A stretch of DNA of 64,000 nt from Saccharomonospora piscinae. GTDB lineage: Bacteria > Actinomycetota > Actinomycetes > Mycobacteriales > Pseudonocardiaceae. Within the stretch, counting starts at the first letter, position 1, and each line of letters opens with the position of its first letter. The stretch lies in contig NZ_VCEK01000003.1 of NCBI RefSeq assembly GCF_005862235.1, forward strand, positions 62,199 to 126,198, read 5' to 3'. The notes under the pieces are model-generated. The model ran no database searches, was not told the origin of the DNA, and saw only the letters and a list, made by a program, of their open reading frames with translations. Of this stretch, positions 46,816 to 64,000 are shown one piece after another. Both the position numbers and the translations under genes were made by a program.

Positions 46816-48118
46816 GACTGAGCAGACCGCACCCTCCGGGCGTCCGAGCCGCCTGCGCCGAGCCGTCGGTTCGGTCGTGGCCGACCGCAGGCCGCTGCGC
46901 ATTCCGGCGTTTCGCAGGCTGTGGGTGAGCTCGATCGTCACCGCGGTCGGCAGCCAGCTCACGGCCGTCGCCGTGCCGAAGCAGATCTTCGATCTCACCG
47001 GCTCGTCGGCCTACGTCGGGCTCACCGGCGTGTTCGGGTTCGTGCCGCTCGTGGTCTTCGGCCTGTGGGGCGGTGCCATCGCCGACACCGTGGACCGGCG
47101 TGTGCTGCTGCTCGTCAGCAATGTGGGCATCGCCGTGACGGCCCTGCTGCTGTGGGCGCAGGCCTTCGTGCAGCTCGGGTCCGTGTGGGTCGTGCTCGGT
47201 CTGCTCAGCGTCAACCAGGCGTTCTTCGCGATCAACATGCCCACCCGGCAGGCCGTCGTGGCGCGTGTCGTGCCACCACACCTGCTGTCCTCCGCCGCGG
47301 CGCTGACCAGCACGGTCATGACGTTCGGCGCCGTGTTCGGGCCGATGATGGCCGGGGCACTGCTGCCCTTCATCGGGCTGTCCACCCTGTACGTCGTGGA
47401 CACCGTGGCGCTGGTCGCGGTGCTGTGGGCCGTGTGGGGACTGCCGTCGCTGCCACCGCTGTCGGGGCAGGTCCGCCGGGCGGGGTGGCGCGACGTGGTC
47501 GGCGGCTTCCGCTACCTGGCGACCCAGAAGGTGCTGCTCGCGTCGTTCGTCGTGGACATCGTCGCCATGGTGGCCGGAATGCCGAGGGCGCTGTTTCCCG
47601 AACTCGCCGAACGCACCTTCGGCGATCCGCCCGGCGGTGGGCTCGCGCTGGGCTGGCTGTACGCGGCGCTGCCGCTGGGCGCGTTGCTGATCGGTCTGCT
47701 GTCGGGCTGGGCGCATCGCGTGAGCCGGCACGGCGTGGCGGTCGTGGCCGCCATCGGCGTGTGGGGTGTCGCGATGGTGGGCTTCGGGCTGTCGTCGTCG
47801 CTGTGGGTCGCGGTCTGCTTCCTGGCGCTCGGCGGGGCAGCCGACATGGTGAGCGCGATCTTTCGCCAGGCGATCCTGCAGACGGCGGCCACCGACGAGA
47901 TGCGCGGGCGGATGCAGGGCGCGTTCACCGTCGTGGTCGCGGGCGGGCCCCGCGTCGCGGACCTCACGCACGGCTGGGCCGCCGCGGCGGTGGGCACCAC
48001 GGCGGCGACGTCGGGTGGTGGCGTGCTCGTGCTGGTGGGCCTGGTCGTGGCGGTGCTACTGCTGCCGGCGTTCTGGCGCTACCGAGCGCCGACGGAAACC
48101 GCGGACAAGACTACGTAA
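46814..48118 (+). CDS. MFS transporter
   Basis: 434-residue transporter, about 12 helices, MFS_3/TMEM-like group: PAFRRLWVSSIVTAVGSQLTAVAV, GLWGGAIADTVDRRVLLL (motif A) and NMPTRQAVVARVVPP. Related in type to the exporter at 26831. The substrate is unknown. GTG at 46814 is eight bases after TAAGCT and inside a palindrome. The last codons (ACT ACG TAA) come from the repeat array that starts at 48101, so the array has shaped this protein's C-terminus. Confidence 0.88.
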   Translation: MTEQTAPSGRPSRLRRAVGSVVADRRPLRIPAFRRLWVSSIVTAVGSQLTAVAVPKQIFDLTGSSAYVGLTGVFGFVPLVVFGLWGGAIADTVDRRVLLLVSNVGIAVTALLLWAQAFVQLGSVWVVLGLLSVNQAFFAINMPTRQAVVARVVPPHLLSSAAALTSTVMTFGAVFGPMMAGALLPFIGLSTLYVVDTVALVAVLWAVWGLPSLPPLSGQVRRAGWRDVVGGFRYLATQKVLLASFVVDIVAMVAGMPRALFPELAERTFGDPPGGGLALGWLYAALPLGALLIGLLSGWAHRVSRHGVAVVAAIGVWGVAMVGFGLSSSLWVAVCFLALGGAADMVSAIFRQAILQTAATDEMRGRMQGAFTVVVAGGPRVADLTHGWAAAAVGTTAATSGGGVLVLVGLVVAVLLLPAFWRYRAPTETADKTT

Positions 48119-48204
48119 CCTGCGGACACGGCTACGTAACCTGCGGACACGGCGTTGTGGCGCCGTGTCCGCAGCCTGGGTAGCCGTGTCCGCAGTTCGC
48201 GTAG
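48101..48204. repeat. 21-base repeat array, head-to-head (four units plus a degenerate one)
   Basis: Unit CTGCGGACACGGCTACGTAAC. A degenerate copy (48101-48120) lies within the end of the MFS gene, then two forward copies, a short spacer around GTTGTGG, and two copies in reverse orientation (CCGTGTCCGCAG...). The halves fold into an arm of about 40 bp. It probably also terminates the MFS transcript. The same unit recurs at 63744-63884. Confidence 0.85.
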
Positions 48205-48228
48205 TCCCCGGTGGGTATCGTTTCGGGC

Positions 48229-49140
48229 ATGGCGAATCCGACGGGGGAACAGTTCGAGCTGACCAGGGGCGGCGCCCGCGCCGTGGTCACCGAGATCGGG
48301 GCGGGACTGCGCGCGTTCGAGATCAACCGGGTGCCCTACCTGGAGACCTTCGGCGAGGACTCCGCGCCTCCCAAGGCGGCGGGCCAGGTGCTGCTGCCGT
48401 GGCCCAACCGCACGCGGGACGCCCGCTGGACCCACGACGGCGAGCCGCAGGAGCTCAAGATCACCGAACCCGACCGGGGCAACGCCATCCACGGCCTCGT
48501 GCGGGACCGGGAGTGGGAACTGCTGGAACACGGCGAGTGGTTCATCCGGCTGGCCGTGGACGTCGGCGCCGACCCGGGCTGGCCGGTCCCGCTGCGCGCG
48601 GAGATCACCTACGAGCTGGCGCCGCGCGGGCTCACCGTCACGCACGAGGTCCGCAACGAGGGCGACGCGCCCGTGGGTTTCGGCCTCGGCACCCACCCGT
48701 ACCTGCGCCTCGGTGACAGCCCCACCGACGAGCTGACCCTGACGCTGGCCGCGTCGCGGGTGCGCCCGCACGTCGCGGGGCAGTCGTGGCCGTTCGGGCC
48801 GGAGCAGGATGTCGCGGGAACGGAGTACGACCTGGGCGGCGGCCGTATCGTCGGCGGGCTCGACCTCGACACCGCGTTCGGCGGGCTGGTCCCCTACGAC
48901 GACGGCAGGCACCACCACCTGCTCCACCATCACGACACCACGCTCGATGTGTGGACCGACCCGGACTTCGCGTGGGTGCAGGTGTTCACCCCCGCCGACT
49001 TCCCCGGCCGGGGGCGAGCGGTCGCGGTGGAGCCGATGACGTGCCCGCCCGACGCGCTGAACTCGGGCACGGACCTGATCGAGCTGGAACCCGGCACGTC
49101 CTGGCGTGGCTCGTGGGGAATCCTCGTCGATATTCGTTAG
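48229..49140 (+). CDS. Aldose 1-epimerase
   Basis: 303-residue galactose mutarotase-type protein: LLPWPNRTRDARW, the His in NAIHGLVRDREW, the second His in GLGTHPYLRL and the base Glu in AVEPMTCPPDALNSG. It interconverts anomers of an aldose. TATCGT (48216-48221) is seven bases ahead of ATG 48229, so I preferred it to GTG 48211, which overlaps that box. The amidohydrolase follows after 11 bases with its own -10-like box. Confidence 0.92.
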   Translation: MANPTGEQFELTRGGARAVVTEIGAGLRAFEINRVPYLETFGEDSAPPKAAGQVLLPWPNRTRDARWTHDGEPQELKITEPDRGNAIHGLVRDREWELLEHGEWFIRLAVDVGADPGWPVPLRAEITYELAPRGLTVTHEVRNEGDAPVGFGLGTHPYLRLGDSPTDELTLTLAASRVRPHVAGQSWPFGPEQDVAGTEYDLGGGRIVGGLDLDTAFGGLVPYDDGRHHHLLHHHDTTLDVWTDPDFAWVQVFTPADFPGRGRAVAVEPMTCPPDALNSGTDLIELEPGTSWRGSWGILVDIR

Positions 49141-62448: not shown

Positions 62449-63480
62449 TCACCGGTCGGGATGCAGGTAGGAGGCCACGAGTTCGATGCTGTGCGCGGCT
62501 CGGACACCGGCGGACCGGTGCGCGAACAGGAACGGGTGTACCGCGTCGTCGGTCACGGCGGTGACACCGGCCAGCGCGGGATCGGAGGTGATGGCGGAGA
62601 CCTCGGCCCGCGCGTCCTGCTCCGTCAATCCGGCGTCGCAGCAGGCGTCGGTGAGAATGACGTCGGGGTCCCGCGCGATCAGTTCCTCGACCCCGACGTC
62701 CACGTTGCGGGCGTCGGTGAGGTCGGCGAAGGCGTTGGTGCCGCCCGCGTGCTCGATGATCCGCGTACCGAAGTCGAGCCCGCTCGCGACCCGGTAGCCG
62801 CCGTCGTCACCGGGCGACACGATGGCCACCGACGGCCGTGGTGCGTCCTCGACCCGCTGCTCGACCGCGGCGATCCGTCGTCGCAGGTCGTCGATCACAC
62901 GCTCCGCGTCGCGTTCGACGTCGAACAGCGCGCCGAGGTCGCGCAGGTCCTGGTAGATGCTCTCGACCGTCACCGTGGCGGGGTCGATCGCGCGGTCGGT
63001 GAGGCCGTCCTCGCTCGGGCACAGCGGGCTCAGGATCCAGCTCTGCACGCCGAGTTCGCGCAGGCTCGCCCGCGTGCCGAACGAGCTGTCCGCGCTGTCC
63101 TCGGCGAACACGCCGTTGAAGCCCGACAGCACGAAGTCCGGCCGCGTCGCCAGCAGGCCCTCCCGGCTGGGCAGCGAGGGCACGTAGTCGACCTTCGCCT
63201 GCTCGTCGGCGTACTCCGGCAACACCGTGGCGTCCAGAAACGCCGTTCCGACCAGCCGGTCGCCGAGGCCCAGAGCGTGGGCCACCTCGATCGCGGGCTG
63301 GTAGGCGGCATACACGCGCTCGGGCGGGCCGGACACGGCGACGTCGATGCCGCAGTTGGTGCGGCTGACGGATTCTTCCCCGCCCGCTTCGGGTTCGGGT
63401 GCGGCACAGCCTGCCAGCACGGTGGCGGAGACGGCGGCGAGCGCCGTCGGTCGACGAAGTCGCGCCAGGACACGGGTCAT
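62449..63480 (-). CDS. btuF: Cobalamin-importer substrate-binding lipoprotein (BtuF-like)
   Basis: 343-residue lipoprotein of the class III (siderophore/B12) binding family: signal MTRVLARLRRPTALAAVSAT and lipobox LAGC (Cys25). A Glu/Asp-rich linker is followed by two lobes with FVLSGFNGVF and IIEHAGGTNAFADLTD, joined by a long helix (VIDDLRRRIAAVEQRVED). Two Cys (LTDACCDAG) are next to each other in the second lobe. It is the first gene of the operon and lies directly behind a cobalamin riboswitch, so its ligand is probably a corrinoid. Confidence 0.9.
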   Translation of the reverse strand: MTRVLARLRRPTALAAVSATVLAGCAAPEPEAGGEESVSRTNCGIDVAVSGPPERVYAAYQPAIEVAHALGLGDRLVGTAFLDATVLPEYADEQAKVDYVPSLPSREGLLATRPDFVLSGFNGVFAEDSADSSFGTRASLRELGVQSWILSPLCPSEDGLTDRAIDPATVTVESIYQDLRDLGALFDVERDAERVIDDLRRRIAAVEQRVEDAPRPSVAIVSPGDDGGYRVASGLDFGTRIIEHAGGTNAFADLTDARNVDVGVEELIARDPDVILTDACCDAGLTEQDARAEVSAITSDPALAGVTAVTDDAVHPFLFAHRSAGVRAAHSIELVASYLHPDR

Positions 63481-63517
63481 GGTCCAGACCGCCCTTCCAG
63501 GTCCTCGTGGAATCGGG

Positions 63518-63688
63518 TCACACGGTGCCGTGGCCGGTCTCCTGGCTGACGGGCGATTGCGTGCCGCGCCTGCCTTCCCAGGACCCGTGGGTCCCAGTGG
63601 CCCGCCCGCGAGCGGACGGCGCGTCACTTCCCGATCACAGTGGCGAGGGCCGCACCGGCATCACACCGGATTCCCGTACACCACGGCG
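63518..63688 (-). promoter_or_regulatory. Cobalamin riboswitch controlling btuFCD
   Basis: On the minus strand the conserved elements appear in order: GGGAATCCGGTG near 63665-63676, GCCGGTGCGG, CGCCACTGTGA, then CCACTGGG, CTGGGAAGG and the B12 box GTCAGCCAGGAGACCGGCC near 63532-63550. The closing stem is CCGTGG with CCACGG. Known biology: this aptamer binds adenosylcobalamin and lowers expression of downstream B12 uptake or synthesis genes. A -10-like TAGCGT (63695-63700) lies just ahead. Confidence 0.92.
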
Positions 63689-63743
63689 CCGCTGACGCTA
63701 GCACGATCAAGCCCGGCGTGGTGGTGACAGCCCGCACGCGCCA

Positions 63744-63884
63744 CCGTGTCCGCAGGTTACGTAGCCGTGTCCGCAGTTCCCGTAGCCGTGTCCGCAGGTT
63801 AGGTAGCCGTGTCCGCATCGTGCGGTGCGGACACGACTACGCAGGCTGCGGACACGGCTACGCAGGCTGCGGACACGGCTGCGC
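63744..63884. repeat. 21-base repeat array, head-to-head (four plus three units)
   Basis: Four units CCGTGTCCGCAG-N9 in one orientation, with TTACGTAG, TTCCCGTAG and TTAGGTAG variants, then three in the reverse orientation (TGCGGACACGACTACGCAGGC and two similar). At the centre, CGTGTCCGCA pairs with TGCGGACACG across an eight-base loop. It lies between glpD and the btu promoter on the same strand and may act as terminator for glpD. Confidence 0.85.
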
Positions 63885-63887
63885 GCG

Positions 63888-64000
63888 TCAGCGCAGGCCC
63901 CGCAGGGAGCGCTCCACGAGGTCGGTCACTTCCGGTCTCGCCGCTTCGGCCTCGGGGGCCACCAGGCCGAGGCGGGTGCGGCGGTGCAGCACGTCGTCGG
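63888..64000 (-). CDS. glpD: Glycerol-3-phosphate dehydrogenase C-terminus (partial)
   Basis: Only the last 37 residues are present: a frame reading DDVLHRRTRLGLVAPEAEAARPEVTDLV and ending LRGLR before TGA at 63888-63890. The DDVLxRRTR stretch is characteristic of the C-terminal helical domain of FAD-dependent glycerol-3-phosphate dehydrogenase (GlpD). The call rests on this short motif; the gene body lies outside the window. Confidence 0.6.
   Translation of the reverse strand, partial: DDVLHRRTRLGLVAPEAEAARPEVTDLVERSLRGLR

Follow-up and report, generated by a model that had tools for sequence, protein, structure and literature searches.

Among the dispersed repeats of bacteria, those studied in depth are palindromic, and many of them are linked to a transposase. 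The STRR of cyanobacteria are dispersed intergenic tandem repeats with a much shorter unit, for which we know of no helical lattice or dialects. Plasmid iterons and other phased multi-site arrays consist of direct repeats that are about 20-22 bp long and spaced by two helical turns, and the ends of Tn7/Tn402-type elements carry several direct binding sites of about 20 bp facing inverted ones. DNA-uptake sequences typically include solitary and intragenic copies, and MIRUs are longer than 21 bp. In the available passages of PMC12548453, MIRUs are described as apparently mobile elements that lie at gene boundaries with little harm, insert at start codons and carry a coupled ORF. REPs are described in the available passages of PMC3733652 as palindromic, tagged, high-copy and intergenic, often occurring as inverted pairs and in species-specific families, and located behind genes and in convergent or tandem gaps; their GTAG types are linked to a transposase. 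Nothing on the array family reported here was found in the open-licence PMC literature (subscription papers lie outside this coverage), nor by term search in the available text of the RepRanger paper (PMC12306157). The family resembles REP and MIRU repeats, yet falls outside the REP definition.

The window analysed is a stretch of 64,000 nucleotides of Saccharomonospora piscinae. The original prediction placed a seven-unit array at 63744-63884, upstream of a btu riboswitch. The array is real, with four + units followed by three - units at a period of 21 (TRF scores 120 and 104). A cobalamin riboswitch is indeed present beside it, and since this occupies 63515-63700 on the - strand, the array begins 44 bp further upstream. 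The features in this part of the window are:

62449..63480, - strand, periplasmic-binding-protein gene (Peripla_BP_2), behind the riboswitch
63515..63700, - strand, cobalamin riboswitch (RF00174, 84.4 bits)
63744..63818, + strand, + arm of the 63-kb array, four 21-bp units
63819..63824, 6-nt centre CGTGCG joining both arms
63825..63878, - strand, - arm of the 63-kb array, three units
63888..63998, - strand, gene (own call) running past the window end

The + cores start at 63744, 63765, 63786 and 63807 (the last differing at 1 of 12 positions), and the - cores at 63825 (2 mismatches), 63846 and 63867. Across the centre, the step from CGTGTCC at 63808 to GGACACG at 63829 is again 21 bp. The stop of the gene at 63888..63998 (TCA on the + strand) lies 9 nt past the outer end of the - arm, and the gene at 62449..63480 can be called BtuF-like only by its place behind the cobalamin riboswitch. 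With at most 1 mismatch, CCGTGTCCGCAG has 12 matches in the window, compared with a mean of 1.74 and a maximum of 5 in 100 shuffles.

A first array had been announced 15.6 kb away and was located at 48097-48204, in the following setting:

46877..48118, + strand, MFS-family transporter gene, 3' end within the 48-kb array
48099..48152, - strand, - arm of the 48-kb array, cores at 48099 (3 mismatches), 48120 and 48141
48163..48195, + strand, + arm of the 48-kb array, cores at 48163 and 48184
48211..49140, + strand, aldose 1-epimerase-family gene, starting 15 nt past the last core

The stop codon TAA of the MFS-family gene sits within the - arm. The 63-kb array had been taken for a second copy of this one, which is correct as to the unit family; the layouts, however, are opposite. 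The CCGTG ends meet in the 48-kb array (- - - + +, the first unit being the one with 3 mismatches) and point outward in the 63-kb array (+ + + + - - -). Likewise, the period of 21 stands, but the unit is not a uniform 21-mer: a core of 12 bp, CCGTGTCCGCAG, is joined to a linker of 9 bp that is less strictly conserved and mostly ends in GTAG.

From the two arrays a genome-wide family had been predicted, and the S. piscinae genome (G000; 4,897,614 bases in 11 contigs) contains 348 exact cores, 168 on the + and 180 on the - strand, the reversed control giving 0. Placement was studied in 854 kb of the 4.90 Mb, of which C3:1-440,000 and the window were included without selection, the remaining stretches being picked for holding arrays. 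None of the 110 exact cores in this sample was solitary, and only 11 lay inside called CDS, though genes cover 90% of it. Neither an absence of further copies nor a scatter inside genes, both named beforehand as contrary outcomes, was found. The exclusion of CRISPR was also confirmed, as the 9-nt linkers between exact cores form a shared set (32 kinds among 74, the commonest, CCTGCGTAG, occurring 23 times) and are not unique spacers. The sample held 50 clusters, of which 45 with at least two units at up to 2 mismatches were counted as arrays and 5, having fewer such units, were left out. Genes were called by a home-made codon-usage caller, with some genes running into arrays; nine negative head-to-gene gaps stem from such run-ins or from spurious short genes. 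Three contigs start inside arrays (C3:4, C4:1 and C5:22), which suggests that arrays may break assemblies and that the true counts may be higher.

We regard the arrays, with a probability of roughly 0.4, as phased docking sites for a putative DNA-binding protein, which turn over like a mobile repeat. Each 21-bp unit would be a site for a sequence-specific protein reading CGTGTCC, and binding to neighbouring sites would be cooperative and, since 21 bp make two helical turns, on the same side of the DNA. Cooperative binding of this kind would be the simplest reading of the spacing. Among same-orientation neighbours no more than 30 bp apart, G000 has 125 of 126 pairs at a distance of 21 bp; in G024 (35 pairs) and G154 (70 pairs) there is no exception, and the pooled count is 230 of 231. 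In G000 the spacing stayed constant even though the 125 linkers were of 46 distinct kinds, and it was retained even in units with 1-3 mismatches. When the 7-mer was allowed at most 1 mismatch in G000, a step of 21 was counted 127 times and one of 42 four times; steps of 8, 13 and 38 each occurred once. As a separate observation, an array with a 16-bp period and the GTGTCC word lies in a convergent gap of L121, so the word is possible at other periods.

By the same count of up to 2 mismatches, the 45 arrays of G000 comprise 27 one-way arrays, 16 two-armed arrays with CCGTG outward and 2 with CCGTG inward; some one-way arrays, such as that at C3:412189, retain a degenerate opposite arm. All 16 + to - junctions in G000 keep CGTGTCC and GGACACG on the 21-bp lattice (12 at 21 and 4 at 42), not counting a doubtful turn with an offset of 20 at C3:959938, which involves a 3-mismatch unit. 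The - to + steps were 6, 19 and 31. Outside G000, 7 of 17 + to - steps fell on multiples of 21 (exact words, gaps up to 70): 1 of 2 in G024, 0 of 1 in G154, 1 of 2 in NB11, 4 of 4 in the set of G144, G090, G111 and G062, 1 of 1 in Amycolatopsis arida and 0 of 7 in Prauserella shujinwangii. Unbroken phasing across the turn is firmly kept in G000, though some relatives depart from it, and common descent from a single two-armed array may account for the 16 junctions that are in phase. The recount in relatives slightly lowers the odds of the binding-site reading and of its wider landmark version, and raises those of a selfish repeat, both of which are taken up below.

Among 150 family genomes, 7 of them from Saccharomonospora, the exact 12-mer exceeded 10 copies in G000 (348), G024 (120), G090 (59), G062 (50) and G144 (39), with lower counts in G111 (10), G128 (4) and the other genera (0-10). 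The word itself reaches further: pairs of the form CGTGTCC-N14-CGTGTCC numbered 101-346 in 8 of 12 genus genomes and 1-3 in the other four, and CGAGTYGC pairs at period 21 numbered 40, 111, 136 and 269 in these four and 0-2 in the eight. One genus thus holds two exclusive dialects (CGTGTCC in 8 of 12, CGAGTYG in 4 of 12), in which the period stays and the word changes. In the 390 family genomes, CGTGTCC pairs numbered 91-131 in all four genomes of Haloechinothrix (g4), and at least 15 pairs were present in 20 genomes from 7 of 46 genera; reversed controls in the pair-rich genomes gave 0-2, except in G144 (2 and 13). The pair counts and the consensus were computed with word and period preset, so the constancy of CGTGTCC is partly by construction; both words, as well as the Haloechinothrix array (G003), were first detected by periodicity alone with no word supplied. 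A blind period scan of 80 kb each detected no 21-bp arrays in four genomes of other genera, G013, G034, G059 and G016 (52, 35, 26 and 43 gaps). CGTGTCC arrays with other linkers occur in Haloechinothrix, two Prauserella and two Amycolatopsis; the matches listed include Saccharomonospora sp. NB11, Prauserella salsuginis and P. shujinwangii, Amycolatopsis arida and A. taiwanensis, and also single matches in remote taxa. The unit consensus is species-specific, and beyond the search word a pyrimidine pair at positions 12-13 recurs and G stands at position 16 in 11 of 12 groups. A class-wide spread was rejected: in a draw of 394 genomes, which included only two further family members, 10 matched the three-unit pattern, nine of them with 1-5 matches each. 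Under the docking-site reading, the sister lineage's version of the putative protein would read CGAGTYG. That core and spacing are kept despite fast linker turnover, and that the word differs throughout the genome between sister lineages, suggests a factor reading the unit in trans.

The lineage of G150-G153 also has a second dispersed family behind genes, which is palindromic with a period of about 30 bp (GTGAGGGGCACTTTCCCTGCGT and variants; L119 6418-6487, L120 19910-19992 and behind leuA in L304-L307).

As to genes, an array was present in 3 of the 20 convergent gaps of at least 60 bp, in 13 of the 134 tandem ones and in 1 of the 64 divergent ones (C3:1-440,000 and the window; Fisher p against divergent gaps 0.040 for convergent and 0.039 for tandem). 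The 59 outer (CCGTG) ends face a stop in 35 cases and a start in 22, with 2 unassigned; 28 outer ends lie within 60 nt of a stop at a median of 3.5 nt, and 13 tail ends within the same distance at a median of 18. A bias relative to gene orientation had also been anticipated. The copies are intergenic, as described above, but the bias is weak, since one-way arrays between tandem genes run along the upstream gene in 11 cases and against it in 8, and an RNA role is thus not demanded by orientation. At the clpC locus of G000 an ordinary terminator hairpin is retained and the array lies downstream of it; in G150-G152 an array is likewise placed after a hairpin-like inverted repeat (both by inspection). 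Under the docking-site reading, species would acquire and lose whole arrays, frequently directly downstream of a stop codon or terminator, and the putative protein-DNA complex would likely form a boundary between transcription units, as a roadblock or a topological anchor. Such a role behind genes is plausible.

Two side observations concern these sites. At clpC, array-free relatives show a CGTGTC-like tail after the terminator hairpin (L324-L330; CGTGTCC in G111 and CGTGTCG in G128), and such tails, where G000 has its array, are a possible seed for new arrays. In the G000 sample, of the 41 genes whose stop has an array no more than 60 nt away, 34 end in TGA, 7 in TAA and none in TAG, compared with 653, 24 and 97 of all 774 genes; some TAA stops sit within or against an array.

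The best surviving rival, a real possibility though we would not bet on it, is a selfish or neutral dispersed tandem repeat with a MIRU-like life style, which survives where it is harmless behind genes, spreads by transposition or gene conversion and multiplies by slippage, its core being kept for the spreading enzyme or the conversion pool and not for the host. Turnover bears on this reading. The leuA array was found in G000 only (1 of 12 genomes), as was the clpC array (1 of 11), and this speaks against arrays serving a conserved function at particular genes. Downstream of gnd, the units are of the CGTGTCC type in G000 and of the CGAGTYG type in G153 (10 readable genomes, one N-masked locus and the cut G154 being left out). 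G000 shares its arrays at C3:862600 and C3:622931 with G111 and G090, the units themselves being specific to the species, and G154 bears an array at a locus where G000 has none. Such gains and losses at species level favour a repeat-like life style, as do the patchy presence among the family genomes, the depletion between divergent genes, the wholesale change of dialect and the local duplication of linkers. Local duplication contributes because linkers are identical more often in adjacent units than between different arrays (35% versus 7% in G000, 38% versus 0.8% in G024 and 24% versus 2.6% in G154), and part of the 21-bp register may therefore be copying rather than selection.

Closer relatives show the smaller steps. 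Between G024 and G154, which are 84-90% identical at most shared loci, the three comparable arrays are all common to both; two have nearly kept their cores and changed their linkers, and the third, lying in a 97.6% identical block, differs in unit number. This block of 11 kb (L127 1-11357 in G154, L097 7525-18909 in G024) reflects either recent exchange or a binning effect. Similarly, G151 differs by one whole 21-bp unit from G150 and G152, shared loci among G150-G152 being mostly 91-97% identical. Docking arrays would win and drop such whole units, but unequal recombination alone yields 21-bp steps, which counts against the binding-site reading. Against the selfish repeat stand the lack of solitary exact cores, the spacing kept in units with 1-3 mismatches, the lack of a phage or plasmid match for the 63-kb array and the fact that searches for Y1_Tnp and Mu-transpos_C found no mobilising gene, the latter (PF09299) being silent throughout, in 0 of 12 genus genomes and also 0 of 14 controls. 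The protein-binding and mobile-repeat readings are compatible, and both may hold.

A phage or plasmid vehicle was rejected, as the 63-kb array had no blastn match at E 0.01 among 50,697 phage and 72,556 plasmid records; the three-unit word pattern did occur in 23 viral-contig stretches, whose linkers differ and which appear to be repeats of a simple or coding type. Also rejected was an origin by insertion into the loop of a terminator, as true flanks paired no better than mismatched ones (mean score 12.1 versus 11.2 in 15 two-armed arrays, 1 of 15 at 16 or above).

Rather unlikely are RNA-level 3'-end elements, under which the transcripts of arrays would form long hairpins, acting as terminators or shielding the ends of mRNAs. 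The folding energy of the 63-kb array is -110.8 kcal/mol (z -10.5) on one strand and -108 kcal/mol (z -12.7) on the other, the 48-kb array reaches z -10.0, and outer ends often lie directly behind stop codons. The 27 one-way arrays, however, hardly fit, because z was -2.6 and 0.4 in two that were folded and -3.3 in a third, which keeps a degenerate opposite arm; moreover, clpC retains its usual terminator hairpin ahead of the array, and in tandem gaps one-way arrays occur in both orientations. The extra-strong terminators of the original prediction are therefore tenable for two-armed arrays (z -10.0 to -12.7) and cannot be general.

Chromosome-scale signals such as FtsK/KOPS, parS or DNA-uptake sequences are very improbable: high copy number and dialects between relatives would suit them, but in the listed first 0.94 Mb of G024 and the listed places of G000 the arrays are spread along the contigs in mixed orientation, which also disfavours the segregation role proposed earlier, and the absence of solitary copies and the few intragenic ones are unlike uptake sequences.

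REP/BIME elements mobilised by RAYT (Y1 tyrosine transposase) are scarcely credible, and RAYT as the general mover is largely refuted: the arrays lie behind genes as REPs do and most units of G000, G024 and G154 have GTAG ahead of the core, like the GTAG-tagged REPs in the available passages of PMC3733652, but the units are not palindromes by inspection, the exact GTAG-bearing 16-mer GTAGCCGTGTCCGCAG occurs at most once in each of the remaining 9 of the 12 genus genomes, several of these low-GTAGCCGTGTCCGCAG genomes have GCAC or GTAC at the tag position, and a search for Y1_Tnp (PF01797) gave hits in 4 of 12 genomes, the array-rich G024, G090, G062 and G144 and the 91%-complete G154 not being among them. 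The outer flank of arrays is GACR-like, with G at -4 in 34 of 58 and a purine at -1 in 53 of 58.

Compared with the known systems, the arrays share with REP, BIME and REPIN elements, as far as the consulted descriptions go, a high copy number, an intergenic position mostly behind genes, frequent pairing in inverted orientation and families particular to a species, but their unit is a non-palindromic direct tandem at 21 bp with no tracking Y1 transposase. No shared inverted repeat within the unit was seen by inspection, and the fold with z 0.4 belongs to a pure four-unit one-way array, that with z -2.6 to another. Like MIRUs, as these are partly described, they are actinobacterial, repetitive, apparently mobile and at gene boundaries; they differ in being 21 bp long, mostly behind genes, in either orientation, two-armed and split into dialects. 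With iterons they share direct-repeat phasing at about two helical turns, but they are dispersed over the chromosome at gene ends, whereas iterons lie at one origin. They are dispersed intergenic tandem repeats as STRR are, and two-armed arrays, with direct sites facing inverted ones, recall Tn7/Tn402 ends, although cargo and transposase were not seen with them (the PF09299 search being silent in controls too). The arrays are accordingly filed among the dispersed intergenic repeats, as a variant phased like iterons; new are the 21-bp phasing despite variable linkers, which in G000 also runs through all 16 + to - turns, the dialect switch at constant period, and the frequent start of arrays directly behind a stop codon, together with their rarity in divergent gaps and their turnover between species.

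The combination of a non-palindromic unit, two-turn spacing and lineage-specific words leads to a testable claim, namely that the unit would be read by a clade-shared factor which diverges with its word. In a wider version, which we consider improbable though worth stating, the arrays would be chromosomal landmarks, in which cooperative filaments of a host protein on phased sites behind genes mark or insulate the ends of transcription units across an actinobacterial clade, with co-evolving dialects. If this landmark reading is true, protein and sites would change together, so that genomes switch dialect while lattice and placement stay. Finding the putative reader would reveal a protein that forms chromosomal boundaries or else a new route by which repeats spread.
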